From contig NC_082620.1 of NCBI RefSeq assembly GCF_030936135.1, forward strand, positions 1,364,001-1,428,000: a DNA stretch of 64,000 bases. Direction: 5' to 3'. The notes below the pieces were generated by a model. That model made no database searches. It saw nothing but the letters and a program-made list of their open reading frames with translations, and had not been told where the DNA came from. Below, one piece after another: positions 427 to 62,014 of the stretch (position 1 is its first letter; every line of letters begins with the position of its first letter). Position numbers and translations under genes: made by a program. The DNA is from Gavia stellata. Taxonomy: Eukaryota > Chordata > Aves > Gaviiformes > Gaviidae.

Positions 427-3400
427 AGAAATTCACCAGGGTGTTGCTGGAGCAACAGCAGGACCGAGCCCGGCGGGAGCAGGAGAGGATCCGACTCTAT
501 TCAGCTGACCCTTTTGATCTCGAGGCACAGGCCAAGATAGAAGAAGACATAAGGTAGCAAACCAAAGTCGCCTGCAGGCTTTGGAGGGTCTTCACGGCGC
601 TTTTTTCCGCCGGGTACTTCCATCCATGGTGCTTTTTCTGTGGGGGACGCAAGGAGAGTGCTTAGATCCTGCCTTAAGATGCCTGCAGGGCAATGCTCTG
701 AGCCACCTTTGCACATGGGAAGGTTGGGAATTGGGGACGTGTAGGCACACCCCATCCTTTAGATGCATCCAGCTGAGCCCAGATCATGAGGTGGCAGCAC
801 CACTGTCCGTGTGTGTGATGTCCCAGAGCTGTCTAAGCTGGTCCACTCTGAAACAAGGGCAGTTGTGGAAAGCACTTAGCTGAGGTCCTCTTGAGAGGTG
901 GCACTTTGGTGCCTCGGGCATGTTTTAAACTGGAGAGCTGGGCCTGTGTTAGTCTCTAAGCTGAGCTCTCTGCACAGCAACATAGCAATGTGGCATCATT
1001 TCTCCCAGCTGCCTTCAAGATTTGGTTTTGTGTACTGCTGATTGTTTTGTCTCTCTGGCTGATTCCAGACTCTGAACATCACTGCTGTCAGAAGAGATGT
1101 TCTGTAGAAATATGTTCTGCTCATCAGTGCTCGCTCCCTCTTGCTGTCTTCCAAACGTAATTGCATTGGGCTGAGGCTTGATTTCTTAAATTGAGTGATA
1201 AATCCTTGAGTCAGAGCATGACTGATTTTCCCCCCCCCCCCCAATAAAGAAATGTTTTTGTGATACAGGCTCACAGTTGGTCATAAGCAAAATTCATTTG
1301 TCATAAGGGTCATTCTTGCGTTACAACTGACAAGGTGTTGGTGCAGGATAAATGCTTAGCTTAGCAATGCAGAAAAATACACTTTTCTAGGTAGCAAAAC
1401 ATTGCTTGGAGGCACAGGAACGCTTTCCTTCTTCCATAGATGAGGGGGCAGATAAAGGTGATGTGCCCAAGGCTGTGCAGCTGTTAGGGAACAGTTTGGG
1501 CATCTAGCAGTCTCCGTTTAGTTTCTCTGAACTCCATGCTTAAATAGATGCGCTCTGCCCAAGATGGACTGGAAGCTGTTGCAAGCATCGTATTTTTTGA
1601 GACACACCTCTATCCTTCAAGTGGAGAGTGTCAAACACAGAGAAAACAGAAAAAATGGATTTGACAAGAAAACAAACTGAAGATTAACCACTGTATATCT
1701 GATTTAAGGTTAAATAATAAAAGACAGGACAATGTGTGGCTCTTTGTTTCGAGAGTGTATGAAGCGGGACAGACTGGCAATAGGGTACTTTAGCTCCCAG
1801 GCAAGCCAGGTCTTGGATGCCGTTAGATGTTTTCCTTCCCCACCAAGAAACCACGTCTACCCATCTCATTGTAGGGGAAGGCTGGCACAGTACAGAAGAT
1901 GGGTAAAAGAGGAGCTTGGGGTTTTTCTCCTTCCGCTACTGAGGAGGAAAAAGGAAATGGCATCACAATTGGAAGCCCTTTTCCCTTTTTGGTAGATAAA
2001 GCTATTTCAGATGCAGTCGCTACGGATACCCCTCACTTCCAAGATTACTGTAGGGGCTGTGATGGGCTTCTTGAGGAGCGTTTCTTCTGTAGGCTTGAAT
2101 TTGCAGCGAGGGCTTGTGCTCGTGGTGGTGTTCTCGCTGCGGTTTTGCTCACCTCCCTCCCTTCCTATGCCTGGAAAAGGAAAGATACCAGCGAAACGCT
2201 GGAGGATTTTAATGTTCAGCTGCTGTGTGGGATTCCAGCATTGTAGCTACTGGCAACATCATCGTGTGCCCTCAGCACTTTATTTTAGAGTGACAAATAC
2301 GCAGGTTTTTCTCTCACAGGTTCTTCAGGTTAACTCTGTTGCAAACAGAGGGCATCAGGTGCTGTCACATGAGTTAGGCAAGGTGTTGGAAGGAGCAGTC
2401 TTCATGGCTGCTGGGGAGCGACTTGGTGTCTCTGGATTAAGCCAAGATCATTATTAGCAATCCCCTTGCTAAGAAGTCTATGTTTAGCTAACGCAGCAGT
2501 CTTTGTTGTGGTTTAAACATGCTGTTTGTAAGGTGAGATGTAGCGGGTGGGATTACCAGATCTGCTTGTAAATCGGAGGGATGCTTATAAGGTCTGGCTG
2601 ATGGAAGGTCTGATTTTTCTCTCTCTTCTCCATTAAATTCAGGCAACAAAACATTGAAGAAAATATGACGATAGCAATGGAAGAGGCCCCTGAGAGTTTT
2701 GGGCAGGTGGTGATGCTGTATATTAACTGCAAAGTCAATGGACATCCAGTGAAAGCCTTTGTTGACTCAGGTGAATTGCTCCCATTTTCATCTCTTTTTC
2801 CGCACTCTCCTTTCCCTCACTGAGGGAGACAGTAAACATTCCAGAAGTTTTGCCCCAAAATTCCGTAATAAAGCACTGCATTACAAGATTCTGAAGCACC
2901 TAATTAAAACCTGAGAGCAGCCTGGGCATTGTTTAAGGCGAGCAGAGCAAATTGTTGCGAGAAGCAGCACGCATGAGTGCTTGAACGCCCCATATCAAGG
3001 CTCCTGTGAGAATTTCTGGGGCTCCCATGCCAGAAAGGTCACTGCCACATGTGTGTCTTATCTCATTTTACAGATGGGGGGATTTTGCATGCCTTTAATG
3101 CTGTGCTTCCCATCTGCAGCCTTAAAGGGGAAGTACTTGGGCTTATTCCAGCTCTACAGTAATACGTACTTTACTGTCAGCACTGATCTGTCTGTATACA
3201 GTCAATTCAGTGCAGTGGGATTCACAGGAACCCTTTATGCCCTAATGCAGTTGCTGATGCAGGCAGTGTGGTTTCCCGGCTGCTGAGTGCAAGATCTTAA
3301 GCCCTTCCAGGAAAGAATTTTAATTTGTGATGAGCTGTCAGGATTTAACACCAATGCTGTTGCTGGTAGGTGCCCAGATGACCATCATGAGCCAAGCTTG

Positions 3401-6400
3401 TGCTGAAAGGTGCAACATAATGAGGCTGGTAGATCGGCGATGGGCTGGCATTGCTAAAGGTGTAGGGACGCAGAAAATAATTGGCAGAGTGCACTTAGGT
3501 AAGTACCGGCATTCTTCTTGGGGCAGCTTTAGAATCATAGAATCACAGAATCGTTCAGGTTGGAAAAGACCTTTAAGACATCAAGTCCAACTGTCAACCT
3601 AACCCTGCTAAGTCCACCACTAAACCATGTCCCGAAGTGCCTCATCCACATGTCTTTTAAAAACCTCCAGGGATGGTGACTCCACCACCTCCCTGGGCAG
3701 TCCGTTCCAGTGTCTGACAACCCTTTCAGTGAAGAATTTTTTCCTAATATCCAGTCTAAACCTCCCCTGGCGCAACTTGCGGCCATTTCCTCTCGTTCTA
3801 TTGCTAGTTACATGGGAGACCAGCACCCACCTCTCTACAACCCCCTTTCAGGTAGTTGTAGAGAGCGATAAGGTCTCCCCTGAGTCTCCTCCAAGCTAAA
3901 CCACCCCAGCTCTCAACCGTTCCTTATAAGGCTTGTGCTCAGTTTGACTGCATTTCCCGCAATCTTGGCTCCGAGGAGTATCTGGTTTAATGCTATAATT
4001 GTTAGAAGCTCCTGCAGAGTAAAATGAAAGTGCATATACAATATGTTTGTTTGTCTCGGGCACAGTAGTGTGGCTTCTGTCTCATTTAATGGGGTTTTTA
4101 ATGGAATTACCTTAACACTTTTAGGTGAGGGAGTCCTCAGCTCAGAGGATGTGTTCACTCTGGGTGCAAAAAACAAGGCTAAAGTGAAATAGCAGGATCT
4201 TTCCTGTTTGGGGTGGGACTCTTGGGCAGTATAAGTTACTTAGGAAGGGTTCCAGTACAGTGGAGTGTTTCGTATTCCTTTGGGAAGAGAAGGCTATCTG
4301 TGCTCTTGTGCAGGTTTTCTGGATGAGAGAAGATTGTTCTTGTTGTCTGAAAAATCAATTCTTTTCACTGTTGTTTCTTCTTAGGCTTGTGCTCTAATGA
4401 GCTGTACGCAGCTCCTCTAGCTTGGAGGGTTAGATAAGCAGTTAAGTACTTAAGTAGGCTGTAGAGCAGGTCAGCTTTTAAAATAATTAACTACCTGAGA
4501 CCGAAGCAGGCCTAATAGTCCCTGGGGCTTGCACAAGGCTAGAATTTCTGTGACCAAATCGGTACGTCAGAGCTCGGGTTTCAGATTTACCCAGCAGGTT
4601 TGTGCAGACCTTTCCGAGGATGTGGAAGAGCAGAAAGTAGATTTGTTGTGCTGTAGCGTTGCGAGTGGTAACTTCTCTCCCTTGCGTTTCAGCTCAGGTC
4701 CAGATTGAAGGGGATTTCCTGGCATGCTCCTTCTCAATCCTTGAAGAGCAGCCCATGGACATGCTTCTAGGACTGGATATGCTGAAGAGGCATCAGGTAT
4801 CTTTTGAAACAGTTACTGGCTCTTCCAAGTTAAGTGCGAAGTGCAACATAAATGCCATGCCTGTGAATTTAATAAGATTTTTCTGGGGAGAGTTGATAGC
4901 GGATTATCTTCCAGCTAGTTATGAAAGAAGTACGTACACTACATACATCATGGATAGCTGTAGCTAGGAGTCTGGCTGCTCCCTGAAGTTTCTTGCTCTC
5001 ATCAAAGATGCTGAGAGCTTTCCAACTGAATGACTTATTACAAATCAAGTCATACGGAGCCCTTTGCTTATAGCTGGTGCTCTTGGCCCGCTTTGCTTAG
5101 CTGCTATGAGCTGTTCCCACTGGAAATGGATTGTTTAACCTTGTTTCTCCTTCTTCTCCGGGAATTGACTGGCTCTTAGGCAGGCCCCTGACGTCTTGCT
5201 GCTCTTTCACAGTGTTCGATTGATCTCAAGAAGAATGTACTAGTGATCGGCACGACTGGCTCGCAGACCACTTTCCTCCCGGAGGGCGAGCTCCCAGAGT
5301 GTGCCCGACTGGCTTACGGGGCCGGGCGGGAAGATGTGCGGCCGGAGGAGATTGCAGACCAGGAACTAGCAGAAGCAATACAGAAGTCCGTAGAGGAAGC
5401 AGGTACCAGGAGGAGCCCAGTTGAGATATTAATCTGCATAGTTTTCTGGCTGTGTATGAGGATGTCTGTCAGCAGTCCTCCTTCTCAGCTCCTAGGAGAT
5501 ACAGTCTAATGCAGCATCAGCAAGTAAATGGTGGAGAGGAAGGGGCTTTATTCTTGCTTGCAGCCTCTAACCGCACTTCTCTCTTCCTTTCTGTACACCA
5601 AAATGCGTCTGCATGAAGGCATTTGGGGGCGCTTGCTGTTTAATTTGTGCTCTCCTTGCAATTTCCTACCCGCTCTGGTTTCTTGGGCTTCGAAGGTGTG
5701 GAGATAAATGGCTGTCTGGCACTCGTTCACCTGAGTCGAGTTGTAGTGCCTAGTCAGGGACACGGTTCAGTTGTGTGATATTTTAGCAGCCTCGTGTAAG
5801 GACAGCTTTGTGGGGGCTTCCGCAAATCCTGTTCTTAATAGCTGCAGCATATAAAAATAGAGGAGCTGTAGCAGTAAGTACAAATCTCTGGATAAAAGTT
5901 CATGACAATTTTTAGAAATAGTACTATTTCAGCATTTTTTCCTTAGAATGGTGCTTGTGCCCTTGGAAGGTGAATTGCTTCTCTTCCTGAAGATTGCCGT
6001 TGCTCCAAATTTGAAAAGCAGCAGCTGAATTCACATTCTAATGTATATCATGAGCCTTAAATGTGGTCTGCAAAGAGAATTTTCACCCTCCCCATAGTTT
6101 TGTTCCCTGTGCCTCTAGAATCCATAAGCTGCACAAATGCAGCTGACTGGGCTATGGAAGATTTTGGTAGCTGCAAAATTTAGTTAAGTGGAGATGCCAA
6201 AATAGCTCAACGCTGAGCTATAAGCCAAGCTGTCTGAAACTCTGATTTTCTGTTTAATTCCTCCCTTAACTTCAGCATATGCTTTTGACTAAAGGAAAGC
6301 TTCATTATTTTCTTCCCCACTATTACAGTGAAGCTGTGAATACCTCGCAAAGTGTATTCCATAGGCCTTTTCCAAAACTTTTAAAGATAACATTTTATAT

Positions 6401-9400
6401 GCAAGTGTTTTATAGAGACTTTTGAGTTTTACTACTAAGTTTTCCTCTGAAAGCATGCAGTAATATTCTGCTTCCCACACACATGCAAAACTCTTCGCTG
6501 GGTCATGTTTAAGCTAATAAAGTTGATTTCTTCAACATTTTTATTGCTAATTTTTTAAGACTCTAGCATGCCCATATTTAAAATTGAAGTGCGATAACCA
6601 GATTTAACCATATATATATATATATAACCAGTTGTAATGTGCTGAAGTTTTTCTTTAACACTTCCCAATTGCTGCTTGATAGTCCAAAGAGTAAGCAGTG
6701 ACTTTCTTGCAAATAACGAAGTTGTTTACATTAAGGGGAGCACGGGACTGCACTTACTGGTCCCTTTGACCAATTTTCTTCCATTCTAAGAATATAAGTT
6801 TTCCACAGATGTAAAAACCTCGAGAGGAAGGCCTGGCTTTAATGCATCAGCAAGAAACGGTTTACATGTTTGACTTTTAAAGCCAAATTTGAATGCTTAT
6901 TGACTTAAGTTGCAGCAGGTAGAGAGAAACACAAACATAGATTTGACCAGATTTGACCTTGCCTCTGTCAGGTTTTGACATAACTAAAGGTCAGACTCGG
7001 TAGCTTGGGCTCATGTGTCTTCACATAACCTGGCAGAGAAAATGTGCAGATGTAAATATTAGTCCTTCTCCTGTTAAAACTTTGAGCCTGATGAAGCCTG
7101 GGTTGGTTTTTGCAGTATCTCTCCATTTTGGATGAGACTGTGCAGACATCATAGTTGGTTGGACTTAGTTCTCTGCTGAAAGGGTCAAATAAAAGGCAAA
7201 CCTTGGCCCAAAATCTATGAGTCTTTACAATAAAAGTATTTTAGTTGAGTCCTTTAAAATGGAAAGTGCCTAAAATGACTTAAATCAAAGCTGCTTATGT
7301 ACCAATACAGTTCTAGAGACCACATGGCTTTGTTCAGACTGATCAGCAGTCAACTGTTTTCCATTGATGCTGAGCCCTAGAGGAATGTAAAAGATTTATG
7401 AGAATAGGAAATCCATTTTGTGTATTCACTGAATTCTTGTAGAACACCCGTGCACAAAACTAAGGTAGGTCTTGTTTAGATTGACTGTGTGCAAGTCTTA
7501 GACATATTACAAGCCTCTGGTTCACAGGCTGTATCCTAAGATGTCAGAATATTAATGTATACCCTCTTCCTCTCTTCCAAAACTATTAGCTGCTGCTAGA
7601 TGGTACCAGGAAAACCAAGTGAAAGAACAGGAGACTGGAGAGGGAGAGAACATAATGCAGGACCAAGGAAGCTCAGCTCCTCGCAAGGCCTGTGTTCTTT
7701 CATAACAGCTTGAATTTTTGCTTCCTTCTGGTAGAAGGTACAACAGAAATCACTGCGTACATCTGTAGGCTATTAAAGTTCTCATTTTGAATGCACCTGG
7801 ATTATTCTTGAGCTTTATTTAATCCCCTGAAGCCCACTTTAGCAAGCCTCATGATTTCTGTCAGCTGACTTGCTGGTGTTTCAACACCTACAGCAAGGCA
7901 GCTGAGGTGGTAGTGGAGTCCTGGTATGTTTTACTGTAATCTAGATCCTCCACCTCTGCTTCGTTTATGCCTGCGAGCTTGCTCTTTTGTGCCAATATGC
8001 TGTGTTTTCCCCATCACCACCATTGGTAACAATTCTGTGCTTACGGAGGATTTACAAAACTGGCAGCAAAACTACAGTTGCTTTAGGAGGGAGTATATTC
8101 AGGTAGCTTACCCCATATACAGCTTTTCATCCAGACAGCCTCGATACAAGAAAGGCACTGCTACCACATATGCAACTCAGGCTTTTTCTAATATAGAGGG
8201 GAATTTATCCCTGATGGTGCACTTTGTGCAGAAGAGTTTGTTCCGGGTGTTAGCTGGATCGATATCCTTGATGGGGCTAGAATTCAGCTCCTGTAGATAC
8301 CCCAGGAGGAGGATGACAGTGGGTCTTGGAAGGATGACGCTGGGGAGTGTTTGGCAGAATACCAGCTACTTCTGCTGTCTAAATGACTGCAAATCCCTGA
8401 TGTGTTTCACTGATCAGGCCCTTATTACCGATCCACTGAGTCAAAAGACAGTTCTGCTTCCTCTCTAAAGGATTGGCTTGGGAGCAGAGACCGTGAACGT
8501 AATCCTACCATGTAGAAACAGAAAAAGATCCCTCCGGTTTTCATCCGTATCCTGTGTCACAAGCCTCTTTGCCACCCTTACGAAAGACGAGCAGTCTGAA
8601 AATCTGCAAGATAATTCTGGCTTTTTAATACTCCAGTGTCGCCAAGTTGTTGTAGCTGCATTAAGACCAGATGTGCCGCCAACGGAAGGGATCGCTCTGT
8701 GCAACGGCTGCTGTATTTTATACCAAAGTGTATTGATCAGAGGTGCGGTATCGCAGCATGTAGCGCACCATTTTTATTTAATGTAAAATAAAAGAAACAA
8801 GTAGCTGAGGTGAAAAAGGCAGATTTCTTCCGTGGTGTGGAACTTAAAAGGAAATCCTGGCTGTACATGTGAGCATGCTTAGCTGTCCCCTAGTACACCT
8901 GGGTATCTGTAAAAAGAGAAAGACTGAAGGTAAAACAGTGGTCTGTGTTTAAAACCACTGAGTTTGGAGGCTTTTGGGAAGGGAAAGGGAACTAATGCAA
9001 CAAATCACGCAGCACAAAATCTGGGTCGGCGTTTGGATATCTGACACTGGACAGAGTGGGGCTTTAATGGAAGAACAGGCGCTCTTACAGCAAAGGTCAT
9101 GTTTGTGATTTAATGAGAGCATGAGAGCTGATATGTTAGCAAGATCAGACTATTAGCAAGATAAGTTCACTTATTTAATCTCTCCTGATAATGAGACCCA
9201 GTGTTTGGTGCTACTGACGGAGATCTGCAATTCATCCGTTCTCCACGTGGAGAAGGAAACAGTGAGCTGGGTTTTACTTCTGGCTGTCTCTTCCTTTGCT
9301 TTGCTCTTCCTGGCCTTGGGCAACAGTTCCTTTTGGGGATTTCTGCCTTTCACCCTAGGATCTTTACGCTTCCCTTTTGCAGCAAGCTGATGTTTGCTCG

Positions 9401-11907
9401 CCTTCTCCTCCGTGTGATGCCGCTAGCCATCGCAAGGCAATAGCTGCTGGGAGCACAGTCCAAGAATTGTGATGCCCTCTTAATTCTCATTTCCCTGCAA
9501 CATGGCTCCTGAATATCTTCAGCTGTACGGAGAACAAACTAGTACAGTGCTAGACACGTGCCTTATGCTGCATGTGTTTTAGTAGTATCACCCACGGACC
9601 ACTCTGCAGCGTAGATAGTACAGAACAGCCTTTAAAATTGTTCTCCAGCAGAGTTATTTTTGACTTGACGTAACGAATTTCCCAGGCAGAACTCCTTCTG
9701 GAAGGCAGCAAACGTGAGGAGCTCCTGCTGCTCGTATGCTGTCTTAATGGACAGTCGGGAGGGAAGCTGCGAGGTCGCAGGACTATAACCATGCATGTGG
9801 TGTGCTCTGAATGCTAACACAAGTTTGGTGTGTTTGTTTCCTAATCCAAACAGAACGTCAGAAGCCTTGATGCATGTAGTGTGTGTTTACTGCAGCTGGA
9901 GTGGGCCACAGACCAGGTATTTATAGCCATTGGTTTGTAAGTTTTCGCTGCTACAGTGAAAATGATGGTTCTCATGTGCCCTAACTACTTCTTTCTTTCT
10001 GTCTTCTGTTAGAGAATAGTGACAAAGAAACTACCTCACTGGAAATGCCCTCATTACCAGCTTCTGATGGGTTTCAAAATCCAGTCCAGTCTTCAGGACT
10101 AAATTCCAAGATCTGTAATTCCACAAATCAATTACTTGATCGTTCTGTCTCTGCCCCTGCTTCAATTTGCTCATCCGAATCTAGCCTCGCAGAGCCCATT
10201 GATCCTAGAGCCGTCAAGTCTTTTGAGTCTTCAACTGAATGCCAGATAACCCCAGAAAAAGAACATCCTCTCTTACTACAGCATCTTTCCAATAACGCTT
10301 CCTTGGCACATAACGACCCTTCTCCCCAGGCAGGGGAGGTAACCTGTTGCAATCCAGCTTGCCTTTCACAGAAGACACTCAAAGAAACATTTATTGCTGA
10401 CAGTCTAAAGGAATGTAACGCTAAAGAACAAGACTGCAGTCAGGAACATCCTTTGGAAGTGACACAAGAAACTAGTGTGGCTGACACTGCTGCTAAGCAC
10501 GGGCAAAATAAAGATGTATGTCTGTCTTCAGAACAGGAGCAAAAGCATGAGCTTCCCATAGACCATCAGATCTGCAAAGAACCGGAGAAGGAACATCTGG
10601 AGAAGCAAGCTGAGACAACTGACCCAGAACCTCCTTGCCATGTTGGTGGGGTTGAGAAACCTGTTGTGGAAGAAGCCAGCCAGCCAGAAAATCCTCCTGC
10701 AGAAATGAGAGGAGATGGACTGGAGAAAGCAGGTCTTTCCTGTGTGAAAGGGAGTATCCAAATGTCAGCCTCCCGTAGCTATATGCATACGGAAGCCTTC
10801 ATGGAAGTAGATGTAGTTGAGCAGTCTGTAGCTGAAGCGCACAGCTCGGCAAGCCAGCAGAAGCGGCAGGCTGAGAACAGAAGTGTATCTGACCTGAACT
10901 TGGACGCCTCTTCTATGGAGGTCGAGTTGCTGAAGTCTGCATCCTCCTTGAGTGATCCACTTTCCGCTGGTGATGTTCCGCAGTCTAAAAGCACTAGTGA
11001 AATTCCTGCAAAGTATAATGAGTTGTCTAATTTGGTAGCTGAAGGCAGCTCTTCCCCCTCCAGCATCCATCAGCTGGACACGGATCCAGGAAGACCTTCA
11101 GAAGAGCCATGTTTCTCTTTAGCATCAGCCTTGAAAGAGCTGCACAAACTCTTGATTATCAGTCGGAAAGGAGAATGTAAAATCCTTGCCTCTGAAGAAG
11201 TCTCTCAGCTGGAAATGGTTCACAAAGAGCCAGCAGCGCAACAGAAGGGGCTTTCTGAAGATGAGCAGAAAGGCTCAGATCCAGCCAGCCAGGAACAGAG
11301 TTGTTCCTTCTATGAGGTGAGGTCTGAAGGTGGAGGAGCGGAGGGGAAACAGCCTTGTGATTCTGGCGTAGGAAACATCAGCATTGGGTCTGTCAGTCAC
11401 ATGCAGTCAGCTCTCCGAGAAGGTGCTTTAGAGATTCAGAAGTTTTCAGGTAAGAGTGATTTGGTCGTGGTGAATTCTGCAGCGACGTCTGACCAACCAC
11501 AGAGCTCTGAGCAGGCGGAGGTTTTGGTAGAAGGTTGTCAGAGTCCAACTGGTCTGACTTTGGAGCGAAACGCATCTGTTTCCTCTAAACCTGCTTTGGA
11601 TGAAGGTGCACCTCAGGGTACTCGGAGCCTGTTTGCAGGAGCACCTGGGAGAAGCAGTAGTTCTGCTCCTGAAGGTGCCTGGCCGTTGGGTGGGTGTGAG
11701 GAACCACTGCTGACCCCACCAGCTGGCTATACTGGACTTTCCTCGGATGCTTCTCCACCACCTGCTTTCCCTGCGGCTGATATTGATCGGATCCTCGGTG
11801 CTGGTTTTACCACGCGAGAAGCTCTTGAGGCCTTGGAACAAGCGGATGGAAATGCAGATCTTGCTCTTCTCATTTTGCTAGCCAAGAGTATCGTTGTTCC
11901 TACGTAA
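427..11907 (+). CDS. DDI2: DDI2, ubiquitin-dependent aspartyl protease (3' part; 5' exons lie before the window)
   Basis: Coding exons: 427-553, 2643-2770, 3370-3498, 4693-4796, 5213-5402 and 10013-11907. All introns are GT-AG and the phases close. The translation matches human DDI2 from about residue 170; the UBL domain lies upstream of the window. The retroviral-type protease domain carries the catalytic DSG (Asp252 by human numbering, in exon 2643-2770) and the DMLLGLD loop. A UIM-like ELAEAIQKS helix follows in exon 5213-5402. The family cleaves heavily ubiquitinated substrates, notably the ER-derived transcription factor NFE2L1, and serves the proteasome in cytosol and nucleus. Human DDI2 ends with ERQKP soon after the UIM. 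Here the last splice gives AEN and stays open into the RSC1A1 frame, so the predicted product is about 1025 aa rather than 399. The exons are certain; expression of the long form is inferred. Confidence 0.93.
1230..1242 (+). repeat. Poly-C run (13 C) in a DDI2 intron
   Basis: An uninterrupted run of C between T-rich and A-rich flanks, in the intron between exons 427-553 and 2643-2770. The rest of that intron (554-2642) shows no repeat or gene that I recognise. Bases 1-426 are the end of the preceding intron. Confidence 0.9.
3531..3940 (-). mobile_element. CR1 LINE fragment, 3' end, 5'-truncated
   Basis: The left edge carries the inverted CR1 tail repeat (AGAATCATAGAATCACAG), so the element runs on the minus strand. 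On that strand bases 3620-3826 read as the C-terminus of the CR1 reverse-transcriptase ORF ([33 protein letters not shown]). Similarity stops near the CR1 segment GGCTTGTGCTC. About 410 bp remain of a 4-5 kb element, the usual 5' truncation. It lies in the DDI2 intron 3499-4692, only 32 bases after the 5' splice site. Avian CR1 copies of this type are common, which supports a bird host. I did not assign a CR1 subfamily. Confidence 0.95.
5403..10012 (+). other. Large last DDI2 intron; no gene recognised
   Basis: A 4.6 kb AT-rich intron. It holds several AATAAA motifs (for example near 6516, 7186, 7229 and 8787) that could allow intronic polyadenylation, and an (AT)8 run at 6610-6626. A 180-codon open frame at 7926-8468 has no domain or family signature and looks like chance. 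If the donor at 5403 is not used, the frame continues 35 codons to a stop at 5507-5509; that tail resembles nothing known. Confidence 0.7.
6610..6626 (+). repeat. (AT)n microsatellite
   Basis: Eight AT units in the last DDI2 intron; no function is suggested. Confidence 0.9.
10011..10014 (+). promoter_or_regulatory. Tandem AGAG splice acceptor of the last DDI2 exon
   Basis: The polypyrimidine tract ends TTCTGTTAGAG. Splicing after the first AG (exon from 10013) completes a GAG codon and joins DDI2 in frame to RSC1A1. Splicing after the second AG (exon from 10015) completes GAA and is followed at once by TAG at 10017-10019, giving a short DDI2 that ends soon after the UIM, much like the human protein. 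The first AG is the default by scanning rules. Use of the second is a hypothesis. Confidence 0.6.
10045..11907 (+). CDS. RSC1A1: RSC1A1 / RS1 open frame (620 aa), intronless, inside the last DDI2 exon
   Basis: In mammals RSC1A1 (RS1) is annotated as an intronless gene in the DDI2 3' region. It is reported to lower SGLT1 transport by acting on trafficking and on its transcription. The N-terminus here ([10 protein letters not shown]) matches human MSSLPTSDGF. The middle is long, low-complexity, Ser/Glu/Gln-rich and probably disordered, with the conserved LKELHKLL helix near residue 370. A QSP tripeptide, a motif reported as active in human RS1, occurs near residue 500. The C-terminus, residues about 575-620, is a UBA fold ([13 protein letters not shown] loop, [10 protein letters not shown]) ending in IVVPT as in human. 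There is no separate promoter-like sequence just upstream. The Met at 10045 is only the conserved internal start; the frame is open back to the splice acceptor at 10012. It may be the C-terminal half of a long DDI2 protein, a separately initiated protein, or both. Confidence 0.88.
   Translation: MPSLPASDGFQNPVQSSGLNSKICNSTNQLLDRSVSAPASICSSESSLAEPIDPRAVKSFESSTECQITPEKEHPLLLQHLSNNASLAHNDPSPQAGEVTCCNPACLSQKTLKETFIADSLKECNAKEQDCSQEHPLEVTQETSVADTAAKHGQNKDVCLSSEQEQKHELPIDHQICKEPEKEHLEKQAETTDPEPPCHVGGVEKPVVEEASQPENPPAEMRGDGLEKAGLSCVKGSIQMSASRSYMHTEAFMEVDVVEQSVAEAHSSASQQKRQAENRSVSDLNLDASSMEVELLKSASSLSDPLSAGDVPQSKSTSEIPAKYNELSNLVAEGSSSPSSIHQLDTDPGRPSEEPCFSLASALKELHKLLIISRKGECKILASEEVSQLEMVHKEPAAQQKGLSEDEQKGSDPASQEQSCSFYEVRSEGGGAEGKQPCDSGVGNISIGSVSHMQSALREGALEIQKFSGKSDLVVVNSAATSDQPQSSEQAEVLVEGCQSPTGLTLERNASVSSKPALDEGAPQGTRSLFAGAPGRSSSSAPEGAWPLGGCEEPLLTPPAGYTGLSSDASPPPAFPAADIDRILGAGFTTREALEALEQADGNADLALLILLAKSIVVPT
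11767..11904 (+). other. UBA domain coding segment at the end of the RSC1A1 frame
   Basis: The last 46 codons encode three predicted helices with the UBA hallmarks: a hydrophobic first helix (IDRIL), a GF loop (AGFTT), a second helix rich in Ala/Leu ([10 protein letters not shown]) and GNADLA opening the third. UBA domains bind ubiquitin. Yeast and insect Ddi1 proteins carry a UBA at this relative position, after the protease domain, while the short human DDI2 has none. The domain call is from sequence; ubiquitin binding is inferred. Confidence 0.8.
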
Positions 11908-12181
11908 CTACGGAAGAGGTAGCTGACTGGGGTGTCTTTTCTTTCAAAGGACGTATCTAAATTATACACCATAATATTCAAGCAGAATGTTGAGCCAGAT
12001 TTTTTAATTATTTGCAGCCAAAGTAACTTGTCTCTCCTGTTTCACTTGTTAGATTTGGCCTTTTAAAAGAAAGAAAACATCCTAGCATTGTGTGGACAGG
12101 ATAGCTTTTAATTATGCATACTGGATTAAAATTAGTGTTTTTATTTAAATGTACAATTTTAGAATAAGCTCCAATGTTACG

Positions 12182-12187
12182 AATAAA
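12182..12187 (+). terminator. Proximal polyadenylation signal AATAAA after the DDI2/RSC1A1 stop
   Basis: The first canonical AATAAA after the stop at 11907, about 275 bases downstream, followed by a GTGTGTGTGTGC stretch (12250-12267) as a possible GU-rich element, somewhat distant. It would give a short 3' UTR. Mammalian DDI2 has a much longer 3' UTR, so distal sites may also be used. Confidence 0.5.
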
Positions 12188-20394: not shown

Positions 20395-21825
20395 AGGGAC
20401 CCAACGCCATCTCCCCTCATCCTCCTCACATGCCCTTGCTGAACCCTGAGCTGAGAAGGACCCAACACCATCTCCCTTCGTGTCCCCTTAGTGGGTCATG
20501 AGAGACCCAATGCCATCTCCCCTCACCCCCTCATGTCCCCTTACTGTCCCCAATGCCACCTCCCCTCATGTCCCCTCAATATGACAATGCCATCTCCCTT
20601 CACCCTGTCACTGCACCCAACACCATCTCCCCTCATGTCCCCTCACTCCGCCAACAGTCCCCTCACTGGGTCATGAAGGACCCAGCGCCATCTCTGCTCA
20701 TCCCCTCACAGCCCCTTGCTGAGCCCAGGGCCGTGAGGGACCCAGCGCCATCTCCCCTCACATCCCCCTCATGTCCCCTCACTGTCCCCAGCGCCATCTC
20801 CCCTCATGTCCCCTCACTGTCCCCAGCGCCATCTCCCCTCACATCCCCTCATGTCCCCTCACTGTCCCCAGCGCCATCTCCCCTCACGTCCCCTCACTGT
20901 CCCCAGTGCCATCTCCCCTCACATCCCCTCACTGTCCCCAGCGCCATCTCCCCTCACGTCCCCCTCATGTCCCCTCACTGTCCCCAGCGCCATCTCCCCT
21001 CATGTCCCCTCATGTCCCCTCACTGTCCCCAGCGCCATCTCCCCTCATGTCCCCTCATGTCCCCTCACTGTCCCCAGCACCATCTCCCCTCACATCCCCT
21101 CATGTCCCCTCACTGTCCCCAGCGCCATCTCCCCTCACGTCCCCCTCATGTCCCCTCACTGTCCCCAGCGCCATCTCCCCTCACATCCCCTCATGTCCCC
21201 TCACTGTCCCCAGCGCCATCTCCCCTCACATCCCCTCATGTCCCCTCACCGTCCCCAGCGCCATCTCCCCTCACATCCCCCTCATGTCCCCTCACTGTCC
21301 CCAGCGCCATCTCCCCTCATGTCCCCTCATTGTCCCCAGCGCCATCTCCCCTCACATCCCCTCATGTCCCCTCACTGTCCCCAGCGCCATCTCCCCTCAC
21401 ATCCCCTCATGTCCCCTCACTGTCCCCAGCGCCATCTCCCCTCATGTCCCCTCACTGTCCCCAGCGCCATCTCCCCTCACGTCCCCTCATTGAGCCCAGG
21501 GCCGTGAGGGTCCCGGCGCCATCTCCTCTCATGTCCCCTCACTGTCCCCAGTGCCATCTCCCCTCACATCCCCTCACTGTCCCCAGCGCCATCTCCCCTC
21601 ACGTCCCCTCATGTCCCCTCACTGTCCCCAGCGCCATCTCCCCTCACGTCCCCCTCATGTCCCCTCACTGTCCCCAGCGCCATCTCCCCTCACGTCCCCC
21701 TCATGTCCCCTCACTGTCCCCAGCGCCATCTCCCCTCACGTCCCCTCATTGAGCCCAGGGCCGTGAGGGTCCCGGCGCCATCTCCCCTCATGTCCCCTCA
21801 CTGGCTCATGAGGGACCCAGCGCCA
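20395..21825 (+). repeat. C-rich minisatellite upstream of PLEKHM2 (about 27 units)
   Basis: Tandem units of about 35 and 45 bases that differ by one decamer (TCCCCTCATG). Each unit is itself built from C4-N6 decamers and ends CAGCGCCATCTCCCC. I count about 27 copies of the GCGCCATC core or a one-base variant from about 20685 to 21826. The left part (20395-20685) is degenerate, the centre nearly identical. It abuts the CpG island of PLEKHM2. Because neither the units nor their variants contain stops in several frames, long Pro/Ser open frames (up to 399 codons) appear; I do not take these as genes. Confidence 0.93.
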
Positions 21826-22088
21826 TTCCCCCCGCTCCCCCGCCGCCTCCGTGGGGACCCGCGGGCGCCATTCGGGGCGGGAGGCGGCGGCCCGGCGGCT
21901 CCCCAGCGGGGCGGTCCCCGGTGCCGGCTGCCGGGGGCGGGCAGCGCCGTTCCCCTCCCTCCCGCCTGACCTCAGTTCCTGGCGGAGCGCGGCGCCCGTC
22001 ACGAGTGCGGCCGCGCTGCGCTCCGCGTCCTCATCCCCGCGGGGCCCCGTTCGCCTCCGCGCCCGCCGCGGGGGGCCCCGGCGCGGCC

Positions 22089-46300: not shown

Positions 46301-48507
46301 ACCGAAAACGCGGTCACCAAGGACGGCATCCTGCACTACAAGGCAGGGACCTCTTACCTGGGCAAGGAGCAGTGGAAGACCTGCTTCGTGGTGCTCAGGT
46401 GGGCGTTGGGGCTGTGGGTCGGGACTGGGGTCAGCTAGGGCTCACCAGAGAAGGTGCTGGGACCAGTTTGCTGCCCAGGAGCTGCTTGGGAGATGGAGGA
46501 GACCCATCTTGTCACCTGGGAGGCTCAATCCACCAGTTGTGGCTGCCCAGCAGCAGGAATGCAACGCTACAGGGCTGTGTGGGTGGAGGGCAGGGCAGGA
46601 GCGGCTGTGGGACCGAAGGCAGAGGGTGTTTGTGCAGTTGCTGGAGCCGAGCTGACTCCAGTTAACGCCTCTCTCATCTTCCCAAACGGCAGCAACGGGA
46701 TCTTGTACCAGTACCCGGACCGCACGGATGTCACCCCTCTGCTCTCCATCAACATGGGGTAAGAGGCTGGTAGGATGTGGCACCCAGACTCGGCAGGGGT
46801 CTGGGGATCGGGAGCTCCTTGGGATGTTCAGGGAGGTGTTTCAGGGCAGATTATGACCTAGTCCGTGCCGCAGGACTCCCTGCTTGCTCCTGGCTGGGTA
46901 CAGATGCCCATTTGCTTTGGCTCCGATGTGTGTAGCTGGAGATGGGCTCATTTCCTCCTGCATGGAGGTTTTTGCACGCCAAGCCCACCCTTTGATGGGG
47001 AATTGGCCTCTGAAGGGATGACGTACCCCTCCAAGAGCCATGCTGGGAGACCCACCGTGCTCAACTCCGGCTCTACCACCATGTGCAGAGACGGAGGTCA
47101 TCCTTGGAGCAACCGCAGAGGATGTCACAAATGGGAAACGAGTGCTTGAGGGGAAAAGGGGTGACGTGCAGCGCAGGGAGGGCAGATGGAGGCGGTTTTC
47201 AGGCTAGCACTGGCCGGTCCATCTCGCTGATCTCCGTCCTCCCCCCTCTCTCCCAGCGGCGAGCAGTGCGGGGGATGCAGGCGCTCCAACACCACCGACC
47301 GGCCCCACTCCTTCCAGGTGATCCTGACGGACCGGCCCTCCCTGGAGCTGAGCGCCGAGAACGAGGAAGACATGGCGGACTGGATGCAGTACTTCTGCCA
47401 GGCTGTCTCCAAAGGGGTGAGCCGGGGACAGGCCCCCAAACACGGGTGCATCGACCTCCTCCTTCGCTCGGAGCCCCTTGGGCACAGCCCAGCCAGCACG
47501 GAGCTGCTTACAGGAGCAGGGATGTCTGGCAGGGATGGAGCAGGCAGTTTTCTCCCAAGCCAGGAGGGCTTCCCCATGGGGCACCCCATGGAGATGGGAC
47601 ACCTTCGTGCCAGATTTTAACCCCCGCCTTCCCCACCCCGTGCAGGTGATCCCCCAGGGTGTTGCCCCCACGCCTTGCGTCCCCTGCTGCCTCGTGCTGA
47701 CGGACGAGAAGGCTTTCACCTGCCACGAGGACTGCCAGACAAGCTTCTTCCGCTCGCTGGGCACCGTGGAGCTGACAGACATCACCGCCATCTCCACGGA
47801 GGCCGGCAAGGAGTACTGTATCCTGGTGAGTGTGGTGCTGCGGGACCGGCCGGCCCGGGGCTGGGGAAGGACGGCGGTGGTAACGCCCGTCCCCTCTCTT
47901 GGTGTTTAGGAGTTTGCTCAGGACCGCAAGCAGTTCCTGCCCCCCTGGGTCCTCTATTTTAGTTGCACTACAGAACTGGAGAGGTTCCTCTCGGCGTTGA
48001 ATGACGCGTGGAGGAACATCTACCAGGTGAGTGTGTGAGGCTGCATCACAGCCTTCCTCCGGCGAGGAAGGGCAAACGGGGCCAGTGCCCTCCGAGGAAG
48101 GAGTGGGTGAATTTTTCCCTGCAGGGTTGAACCCACCTTTCCCACGAAGGGCAGGAGAGCCACGGAGCTCCTCCGTGTCTGTATAACTGGGGGATGTGGG
48201 ATTCAGAGCCTGAGTCCCCTGGCAAGGGGGGCCATGAGCATCCAGGGCTGGCAAGAGGAGTGGGGAGGAACCTGGGTCAGCCCCGTCCCACTCCATCACC
48301 CGTATTTATGACACAGGCGACTTTCCCGTTGTTCGTTCCCCTCCTGACTGCCCCGCACACGTGTTTCAGGTCGACCTCCTGCACAAGACCATTCTGGACG
48401 CCGCAGTCAAGAAGAAATGCGAAGACGCTCAGAGCCTCATCGACAGCGCCTGGCAGCGCAGCGACAGCCTCTGCCGCGGGCGAGCGGAGCGGGACCCCTG
48501 GTGTTAA
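22301..48507 (+). CDS. PLEKHM2: PLEKHM2 / SKIP, lysosome-kinesin adaptor (1008 aa, 20 coding exons)
   Basis: Coding exons: 22301-22360, 34331-34437, 34582-34691, 35623-35722, 36273-36360, 36870-37056, 39219-39278, 41940-42174, 43330-44109, 44373-44442, 44531-44621, 44953-45017, 45364-45452, 45988-46120, 46208-46398, 46693-46758, 47257-47416, 47646-47825, 47910-48026 and 48370-48507. They sum to 3027 bases, 1008 aa against 1019 in human. An N-terminal RUN domain (about residues 36-158) binds ARL8 on lysosomes. Two tryptophan-acidic motifs that bind kinesin light chain sit at W207 (LEWDD) and W236 (DWED), the human positions. A Lys-rich patch (KKKKTGKKKK) opens exon 43330. A PH domain lies at about 763-863. 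The protein moves lysosomes and Salmonella tubules towards the cell edge. The start is the conserved MEPAEVKDRILE, in good context. Exon 39219-39278 is 60 bases and phase-symmetric, so skipping it would remove the W236 motif without shifting the frame. Confidence 0.97.
22385..22900 (+). repeat. Degenerate G-rich tandem repeat at the start of PLEKHM2 intron 1
   Basis: Imperfect units based on TGTGGGGCTGGGGACAGCCC followed by TGGGGACTCCC, fading out by about 22.9 kb. It lies immediately downstream of the CpG island, so the promoter is bracketed by tandem repeats on both sides. Confidence 0.7.
22901..34330 (+). other. PLEKHM2 intron 1, remainder; no gene recognised
   Basis: About 11.4 kb of mixed-composition sequence. 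I see short homopolymer runs (T/A near 25850, A14 at 29857-29870), a purine-rich GAAGGAAAG patch near 31785, and no transposon that I can name. A 60-codon frame at 24664-24846 begins after a TTGCAG and ends SDIILEDSQD; I cannot tie it to any family. First introns of this size often hold enhancers, but nothing specific can be shown here. Confidence 0.6.
38138..38246 (+). repeat. 17-bp perfect inverted repeat with 75-nt loop in PLEKHM2 intron 6
   Basis: The left arm (38138-38154, TGCTTATGCCAAACCTC) is exactly complementary to the right arm (38230-38246). The left arm lies in a 32-base segment (38133-38164) flanked by a good acceptor (TTTGCTTTCAG) and a consensus donor (CAG then GTAAGTG). That segment would shift the frame if spliced in. 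Whether it is a small transposon remnant, an RNA hairpin or chance is open. Confidence 0.7.
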
Positions 48508-49565: not shown

Positions 49566-52822
<3,257 letters not shown>

Positions 52823-59936: not shown

Positions 59937-62014
59937 ATGCTGCCGGGGAAAGCGGAGAAGAGGATCGCTTCATCAGTCTTCATCACCCTGGTGCCACCGC
60001 GGAGGGAGGCGGCCACCAAGGAGCAAACCCAAAGGGAGCTGCAGCCGGATGGTGCTGAGGTCCCCGGCACCCGTCGTCCCCGGACCCCACCGCTGCAGCC
60101 CCCCGTGTTGCCCAATGGAGGTGAGAGGTGTCCGTGGGGGGGCTGCACGTGGTGCCAGGAGGATGGTGATGGTGCTGAGGATGCTGCGGAGATGCTTTGC
60201 TAAAGGATGCCTGTGCAGGCAGGAGGGGATGTGGGTTTTTTTGGGGGGGTTATTCCCCAAATCCCTGCACCCACCCCGGGATGGATCCGGCTGCCGGGGA
60301 AGGGCTGTGTTTGCTCTCCGTTGCTGGGCGCTTATCAGCGCTGTTTGTCCCCTCTGGCTGGGACGGCGTTTGCTTTTGGGGCAGGTCGATGAGCGCTGCT
60401 GCAAAGCTGTCGGGGCGTTATTGTGACAGGGTGTTATTGGACATTATTGCCCCCCCTAAACCCACCGTGTCCGGCTTTCGCCACAGAAATCCGCCCAGGG
60501 AACCCAGTGCCTTTGTCCCCGCCAGTCCTTGTCCTCTCCGAAGCGCCCCAGCCCTTGTCTGCGGAGGCGCTGGGTCCAGCGCTGCAGCAACTGGATCTGG
60601 CAGCACCCGCTGCCCTCCAGGTGAGGACAATGGGGTGCAATCACCCCAGTGCCTCAGTTTCCCCACCTGCAAGAGCATAAACGTAACATGCCTTCTCCTT
60701 CCCCTGCTCACCAGGCCCCTTCCGCCTTCCCTGCCGAATTGAGGCCACCCAAATTTTGCCAGGAGCAAGCAGGCAAGCCACGGTGGCAGGATGCAAATGG
60801 GCACCCAGAGAGGGATGGCTCCAGAGGTAAGTGCAGCTGCACAGTGCAGGCTCGTCCCCAGCTGGGGAAACTGAGGCACGCAGCACCGAACCCCTCTCCC
60901 TTCTTTCCACAGACATCTGCGCCTTTTGCCACAAAGCAGTGGGGCCGCGGGAGCCGACAGTGGAGGCGATGCGGAAGCAGTACCATGCTGACTGCTTCAC
61001 CTGCCGGACGTGCCACCGGCTCCTGGCCGGTCAGCGCTACTACCAAAAAGACGGGCGCCCCACGTGCGACGCCTGCTACCAGGTACCCATCCTCCCTCGG
61101 GGACAACCAGCACCCTCGGGGGGGGTGGCAGGAGATGCAGTCCCTTGGAGGGGGAGCTGGCATCTCATAGCGTGTGCCCCCCAAACCCCAGGCCACGCTG
61201 GAGAAATGCGCCAAGTGCCAGGGGCTGATCACAGAGCGCATCGTCCGTGCCCTGGGCAAGGGCTACCACCCCGGCTGCTTCTCCTGTGCCGCCTGCGGCC
61301 GGGCCATCGGTGCCGAGAGCTTCGCCGTGGATGAACACAATGAGGTGTACTGCGTGGCCGACTTCTACAGGTTGGGGAGCACGGAAACAGGGGAGCATCC
61401 CCCACGTTGGGGGGGTCTGGCTCATCCCTGTCACCCCACAGGGCTCATGCCGCCCCGGTTTGCTCCCATCAGGAAATACGCCACGGTTTGCAGCGCCTGC
61501 GAGCACCCCATCATCCCCCGTGAGGACAAAGACACCTACAAGATCGAGTGCCTGGGACGCAGTTTCCATGAGAGCTGCTACCGCTGCGAGGTACAGCCCT
61601 GACGGGCCCCCAAAAGCCGAGGGGTTTGGCACTGAGCCTTTGCTAAGCACAGCCACGGGGCTCACGGCGCCTGGAGTTGGTTTTTAGCCACCAGTTTATC
61701 TTCCAAGTGACAGGGAGGGGGAAAAATAAATAAACTGGGTGAAAAAGATGTTGCGTTCGGCTAGGAGAGCTTCAGCTTTTCAGGCTTTTGATGTAGTTTA
61801 TTGCTTTTTCCGGGTGCTGGTGGGTTTTGCAGGAAAGATGGGATGCAACGCAGCATGGGGACCCCTAAAACGTGGCCTCCCTTTTCCCTCTCGCCCCCAG
61901 AGCTGCGGGACGCCCCTGTCACCGGAGCCGACAGAGAATGGGTGCTACCCTCTGGACAACCACCTCTTCTGCAAGTCCTGCCATGTCCGCCAGCGAAACG
62001 AGTCGTCCTGCTAA
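59937..62014 (+). CDS. FBLIM1: FBLIM1 / migfilin, filamin-binding LIM protein (336 aa, seven coding exons)
   Basis: Exons 59937-60120 (acceptor at 59911), 60487-60620, 60715-60826, 60913-61082, 61192-61370, 61473-61590 and 61901-62014; 1011 bases, 336 aa against 373 in human. The N-terminus, EKRIASSVFITLVPPRR, is the filamin-binding strand, nearly as in human. The middle is Pro/Ala-rich. Three LIM zinc-finger pairs follow: CAFC to CDAC (about residues 145-198), CAKC to the VADFY stretch (about 206-260) and CSAC to CKSC (about 265-328), with all visible zinc ligands present. Migfilin sits at focal adhesions and cell-cell junctions, linking filamin, kindlin-2 (FERMT2) and VASP. Unlike human, the middle has no run of six or more prolines, the VASP-binding element. 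The start MLPGKAEKR differs slightly from human MASKPEKR but is the only Met in place. Confidence 0.95.

Follow-up and report, generated by a model that had tools for sequence, protein, structure and literature searches.

Is RSC1A1, the reading frame found directly downstream of DDI2, a gene in its own right, or is it a part of DDI2? The question is raised here by a window of 64,000 nucleotides of Gavia stellata DNA (contig NC_082620.1 of assembly GCF_030936135.1, positions 1,364,001 to 1,428,000 of the forward strand), to which all coordinates below refer unless another sequence is named. According to passages of PMC4962041, the UBA was lost from the vertebrate Ddi1-like proteins, the DDI2 locus apparently took in RSC1A1 as an insertion, and RSC1A1 came to include the UBA. 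The central evolutionary idea, namely that RSC1A1 holds the old Ddi1 UBA, is therefore already in print. Vertebrate Ddi2 or Ddi1 is likewise given without a UBA in passages of PMC9062259 and PMC5028754, as are the human proteins in a passage of PMC11012796, and RSC1A1, under the name RS1, is treated in the relevant part of PMC7462918 as its own protein, which slows the release of SGLT1 vesicles from the Golgi. The answer favored by this one genome, from its sequence alone, is that RSC1A1 is probably an enlarged last coding exon of DDI2 and not an independent gene, and that two alternative acceptors lead into the end of the message, so that the splice choice would set whether the protein carries a UBA.

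The DDI2 gene was assembled from the exons listed in Table 1, with AG at all seven acceptors (exons 2-8) and GT at all eight donors; exon 8 is preceded by CACAG at 5213 and followed by the donor CAG/GTACCA after 5402. The assembled protein contains a UBL (Pfam ubiquitin, E 8.6e-7, 29.1 bits against a cut-off of 25.4), the helical domain ahead of the protease (Pfam Ddi2_HDD, E 7.2e-30) and the retroviral-type aspartyl protease (Pfam Asp_protease, E 1.2e-52), with the catalytic DSGA at residue 250; the exon lengths place the codon of Asp250 at 2764-2766. The UIM is encoded by positions 5345 to 5402, within exon 8. Compared with human DDI2, exon 4 agrees at 40 of 43 residues with DDI1 homolog 2 (5k57), its only PDB match at E <= 0.01 (E 4e-20), and exons 7-8 agree with 4rgh at 63 of 64. 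Human DDI2 ends in ERQKP, and the remaining DDI2 protein and the ERQKP end described below are taken by us to resemble the human protein. The human UIM peptide, as printed in PMC4962041, has 17 of its 20 residues in common with the sequence found here.

Genome searches found neither a retrocopy nor a second copy of DDI2, with ten candidates scored and all eight matches at E <= 0.01 lying at the locus itself. A second copy of the tail, as the RSC1A1 frame will be called, was not found in the genome either: with seven candidates scored, the search returned the tail's own place and weak matches with E of 0.79 and 6.14. The searches thus turned up no retrocopied sequence in which one of the splice junctions discussed below could be seen.

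Some features of the neighboring sequence may be recorded here. The intron just after exon 6 contains, at 3535-3935, what is presumably an avian CR1 element, judging by its resemblance. Further downstream, positions 20502-21966 hold a long repeat in which several frames encode units like SPHVPSLSPAPSPL, probably a minisatellite. Pfam domains also occur downstream in the window, namely PH (47231-47617), mitochondrial carrier (52110-52457) and LIM (60831-61331), and this order is, we assume, the one expected from PLEKHM2, SLC25A34 and FBLIM1 downstream of DDI2. On the upstream side of DDI2, a minisatellite-like array with units like GGVWGPLAGLREGTGGEG occupies L010:2908-6463, in a host gene that looks to us like DDOST, and L011 holds what we take to be kinesin-like exons.

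The message can be continued from the donor at 5402 in two ways, through acceptors that are 159 bases apart. When the donor is joined to 9854, the frame ends with ERQKP and a stop, giving a DDI2 of 397 aa; its UIM occupies residues 374-393, and the protein ends four residues later, soon after the UIM, as is characteristic of a short DDI2. Human DDI2 is 399 aa long in PMC4962041, in a passage that prints the 20-aa UIM peptide as residues 376-396, and if the peptide starts at 376, four residues follow it there, as in the 397-aa form. When the same donor is joined to 10013, the AG found there fills the split codon GAG (E), ten open codons follow, and then the Met at 10045. In all, this junction opens 631 in-phase codons, the split codon counted, and yields a protein of 1023 aa whose domain order, as assembled from the exons, is UBL-HDD-protease-UIM-linker-UBA, with about 585 residues from the UIM to the UBA. 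The ATG at 10045 is taken by us, from a presumed correspondence, as the start of RSC1A1.

Table 1. Features of the DDI2-RSC1A1 locus, in window coordinates except for exons 1-3
Feature	Position	Strand	Remarks
DDI2 exons 1-3	L009:1959-2096, 6644-6773, 7778-8008		same contig, upstream of the window
DDI2 exon 4 (HDD domain)	427..553	+	AG/GT borders; 5k57 match
DDI2 exon 5	2643..2770	+	Pfam Asp_protease on the assembled protein
DDI2 exon 6 (protease)	3370..3498	+	
DDI2 exon 7 (protease)	4693..4796	+	
DDI2 exon 8 (protease end and UIM)	5213..5402	+	ends in phase 1; UIM as in a passage of PMC4962041
Short ending, coding part	9854..9870	+	acceptor after 9853; split codon gives E, followed by RQKP and TGA (9868-9870)
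Candidate branch site CTAAC	9981..9985	+	its A 29 nt before acceptor 10013, no AG between
Long ending, coding part (RSC1A1 exon)	10013..11907	+	acceptor CTGTTAG/AG; TAA at 11905-11907
First in-frame ATG of the tail	10045..10047	+	preceded by the split codon and ten others
C-terminal UBA	11767..11880	+	residues 978-1015 of the long form; Pfam and PDB matches
Possible poly(A) signals common to both forms	12125..12187	+	ATTAAA 12125, AATAAA 12182; first after the stop

Much of the long ending had been anticipated. The original prediction, made from the window alone, had exon 8 ending in phase 1, with the two missing bases supplied at 10013, and a stop-free frame running from there through ten codons to the RSC1A1 Met and on to its end, and both statements agree with the assembled gene. 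Its estimate of about 1025 aa becomes 1023 aa once exons 1-3 from L009 are added, and the protease, UIM and UBA that it named are seen, respectively, in the Pfam match of the assembled protein, in the UIM sequence and in the matches of the UBA. The same prediction held that mammals cut the protein off by a stop codon and that this lineage keeps the whole, and here it overlooked acceptor 9854 with its ERQKP-stop. The short ending is present in Gavia too, so that, as far as this genome goes, the stop is not confined to mammals. With two acceptors available, this is not simply a lineage that has retained something lost by mammals.

The proposed mechanism is accordingly one of acceptor choice. Use of acceptor 9854 would produce the short form (UBL, HDD, protease, UIM) and leave the RSC1A1 frame in the 3' UTR, whereas use of acceptor 10013 would produce the long form, in which a Ser/Glu-rich linker tethers the UBA to the protease, and would restore the order UBL-protease-UBA of yeast Ddi1. 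Both forms would be made, the UBA would bind ubiquitin, and the choice of acceptor may be regulated. Neither AATAAA nor ATTAAA occurs in 9871-10012, between the short ending and the long one, and the short-form mRNA would therefore extend through the RSC1A1 frame, which is what alternative acceptor use would predict.

Two further observations concern the processing of this region. A donor-like CAG/GTATTT at 9917 makes 9854-9916 a possible internal exon, with a 96-nt intron between it and 10013; such an exon would still end the product at ERQKP. An AATAAA at 10507, inside the RSC1A1 frame, is a possible premature poly(A) site.

The tail frame looks coding, both by its length and by its codon-position bias. 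It is open for 640 codons, whereas no frame exceeded 286 codons when 9901-12000 was put through 500 mononucleotide shuffles, and the fraction of G at codon positions 1, 2 and 3 is 0.363, 0.162 and 0.232, respectively. Its composition includes 14% Ser and 11% Glu, FoldIndex values of 51-residue segments from residue 401 on are mixed, ranging from -0.32 to 0.15, and the tripeptide QSP occurs once, at tail residue 509. The name RSC1A1 is our assumption, drawn from the place of the tail, its UBA and its presumed likeness to the mammalian sequence. The tail adjoins DDI2 on the downstream side and ends in a UBA, as is described for RSC1A1 in a passage of PMC4962041, which puts it directly after DDI2 and gives it a UBA.

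The UBA at the end of the tail matches the Pfam UBA profile with an E of 1.6e-4 and 21.8 bits, just below the curated cut-off of 22.4. The best of its nine PDB matches (E <= 10, 177,635 sequences) is the UBA of yeast Ddi1 (2mr9), at a marginal E of 0.013, followed by two NUB1 sequences and, in fourth place and again marginal (E 0.2), by S. pombe Mud1, a Ddi1 ortholog. The Pfam UBA profile gave 17 matches in the genome at E <= 0.001, the tail UBA not among them, and in the reverse search the yeast Ddi1 UBA, with two candidates scored, had a single match in the genome (E 5.92), which lies elsewhere, and did not return the tail UBA. These 18 places and the tail UBA itself form a set of 19 that were compared pairwise. 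For the yeast Ddi1 UBA the tail UBA ties for first place (65) with L012, and for the Mud1 UBA it is second (59 against 83 for L004), but it is second also for NUB1 (62 against 100) and for CBL-B (57 against 93). Its likeness is therefore not specific to Ddi1, and by these scores it is a rather typical UBA. No relative was found when the UBA stretch (60 aa) and the whole tail (630 aa) were searched against GTDB and viral contigs, or when the whole tail was searched against plasmids.

The original prediction had taken the UBA of RSC1A1 for the old Ddi1 UBA. This view has the published statement in PMC4962041 behind it, as far as the passage goes, and because the sequence tests are marginal or unspecific, the ancestry rests more on that statement and on the adjacency to DDI2; a Ddi1 origin is not established by these tests of the UBA sequence. 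The results against a Ddi1-specific ancestry of the UBA have no bearing on the splicing claim.

How the linker became so long is a related question. The model stated in the passage of PMC4962041 is that a new gene, RSC1A1, entered an ancestral Ddi1 early in vertebrate history, that it separated the protease from the UBA and that it captured the UBA, and the approximately 585 residues that separate UIM and UBA are what such an insertion would leave. The two halves, however, are parted by a single intron, over which they can still be joined in frame, and neither a stop nor a start is required in between; growth of the linker within one exon therefore explains the layout without any gene insertion. 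For this reason the insertion seems to us unlikely. It concerns the origin of the locus, and it could be compatible with the reading of RSC1A1 as the last coding exon of DDI2, which concerns its present-day splicing.

That reading depends on acceptor 10013, and the acceptors were scored with a matrix of textbook frequencies. On this scale 10013 reaches 8.12, which ranks first among the 528 AGs in 5403-11907 and above all seven upstream DDI2 acceptors, whose scores run from -2.12 to 7.58. Acceptor 9854 scores 3.50, which is rank 16 of the same 528 and rank 14 of the 345 AGs in the intron. Pyrimidines make up 90% of positions -5 to -25 at 10013 versus 67% at 9854; a CTAAC also lies 37 nt before acceptor 9854, with one AG in between. 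The score of 10013 is not rare by itself, because at least one AG as good as 8.12 arose in 138 of 400 Markov-simulated introns of equal length (mean 0.44 sites) and because this value is attained by 19 of the window's 4491 AGs. What is unusual about 10013 is not its score but its place and phase, which open the long frame. An in-phase run of at least 500 codons is opened by 9 of the 364 AGs in 5403-10300, and the eight other than 10013 all score -0.6 or less; only two of the nine lie upstream of the RSC1A1 Met, namely 10013 (8.12) and 10028 (-10.45).

Other acceptors of the intron were also considered as the start of alternative last exons. Among the best 40 by score, 10013 opens its 631 codons, 7945 opens 174, 8197 opens 90 and the others open at most 51, and the candidates other than 10013 were set aside.

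The locus could also consist of two overlapping but separate genes. DDI2 would then always end in ERQKP through 9854, RSC1A1 would be made from its own Met at 10045, either from its own promoter in the intron or as a capped 3' fragment, and the in-frame join would be a relic or a coincidence. A free-standing RSC1A1 of this kind could do without the ten open codons and without acceptor 10013, and yet the top-scoring acceptor-like site of the region lies a short way ahead of the Met and in the phase required. The presence of acceptor 9854 with its ERQKP ending, the ATG within ten codons of the 10013 join and the frequency of comparable sites in the simulated introns all suit two genes, as does the treatment of RS1 as a protein of its own, acting on SGLT1 release at the Golgi, in the part of PMC7462918 concerned. 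In 500-base bins of 5403-9902 the GC content is 0.35-0.48 and the CpG o/e 0.05-0.63, compared with 0.71 and 0.65 around exon 1, and the bin with the highest CpG (8403-8902, o/e 0.63) has a GC content of only 0.45; because these values are low, the last intron, at this resolution, contains no CpG-island promoter for a separate RSC1A1, although a promoter that lacks a CpG island and is tissue-specific could serve instead. Taken with the phase of acceptor 10013, two separate genes are, in our judgment, unlikely. Still less credible, and indeed very improbable, is a derived fusion, in which the vertebrate ancestor had DDI2 and RSC1A1 as separate genes and the in-frame acceptor 10013 was gained secondarily here: the single genome examined holds nothing contrary to it, but it needs a new strong acceptor, a branch site and ten open codons, all in phase.

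If RSC1A1 is the enlarged last exon of DDI2, as we think probable, the long form can be set beside S. cerevisiae Ddi1, S. pombe Mud1 and Drosophila Rngo, all of which have, like it, the protease and a C-terminal UBA and, with the exception of Mud1, a UBL too (passages of PMC5028754 and PMC4962041). It differs from the yeast and invertebrate Ddi1 in two respects: here the protease is followed by a UIM and a linker of about 585 aa before the UBA is reached, and both linker and UBA can be dropped through an alternative acceptor. For human DDI2, no long form is described in the passages of PMC4962041, PMC11012796, PMC9062259 and PMC5028754, and RSC1A1 is a separate protein in this literature, so far as the passages show, whereas here a strong acceptor allows its frame to follow that of DDI2 without a break. 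None of the full-text matches listed, or of the passages from them, describes a spliced DDI2-RSC1A1 form; automatically annotated forms of this kind may well be on record for other birds.

In yeast, the linker between the protease and the UBA of Ddi1 mediates an interaction that inhibits exocytosis, according to a passage of PMC5028754, and the control of exocytosis by RS1 may be a parallel to it. It is possible, though still doubtful, that the UBA was never lost from vertebrate DDI2. A single gene would then make both a short protease that ends after the UIM and a long ubiquitin shuttle-protease, the linker of which is the RSC1A1 that has been studied; the control of exocytosis by RSC1A1 would be the old function of the Ddi1 linker, and Rsc1a1-knockout mice would be mutants of long-form Ddi2.

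Since vertebrate DDI2 has been described without a UBA, its binding of ubiquitin conjugates had to be re-explained, and the explanations given in part of PMC4962041 and in part of PMC9062259 involve, respectively, the UIM, which is very weak, and the UBL. A splice form that carries the UBA, if it is made, would be an extra ubiquitin binder, one that is not considered in the passages of these two papers. RSC1A1 and its knockout would also have to be interpreted differently, and the literature on proteasome shuttling would be united, at one locus, with that on SGLT1 exocytosis.
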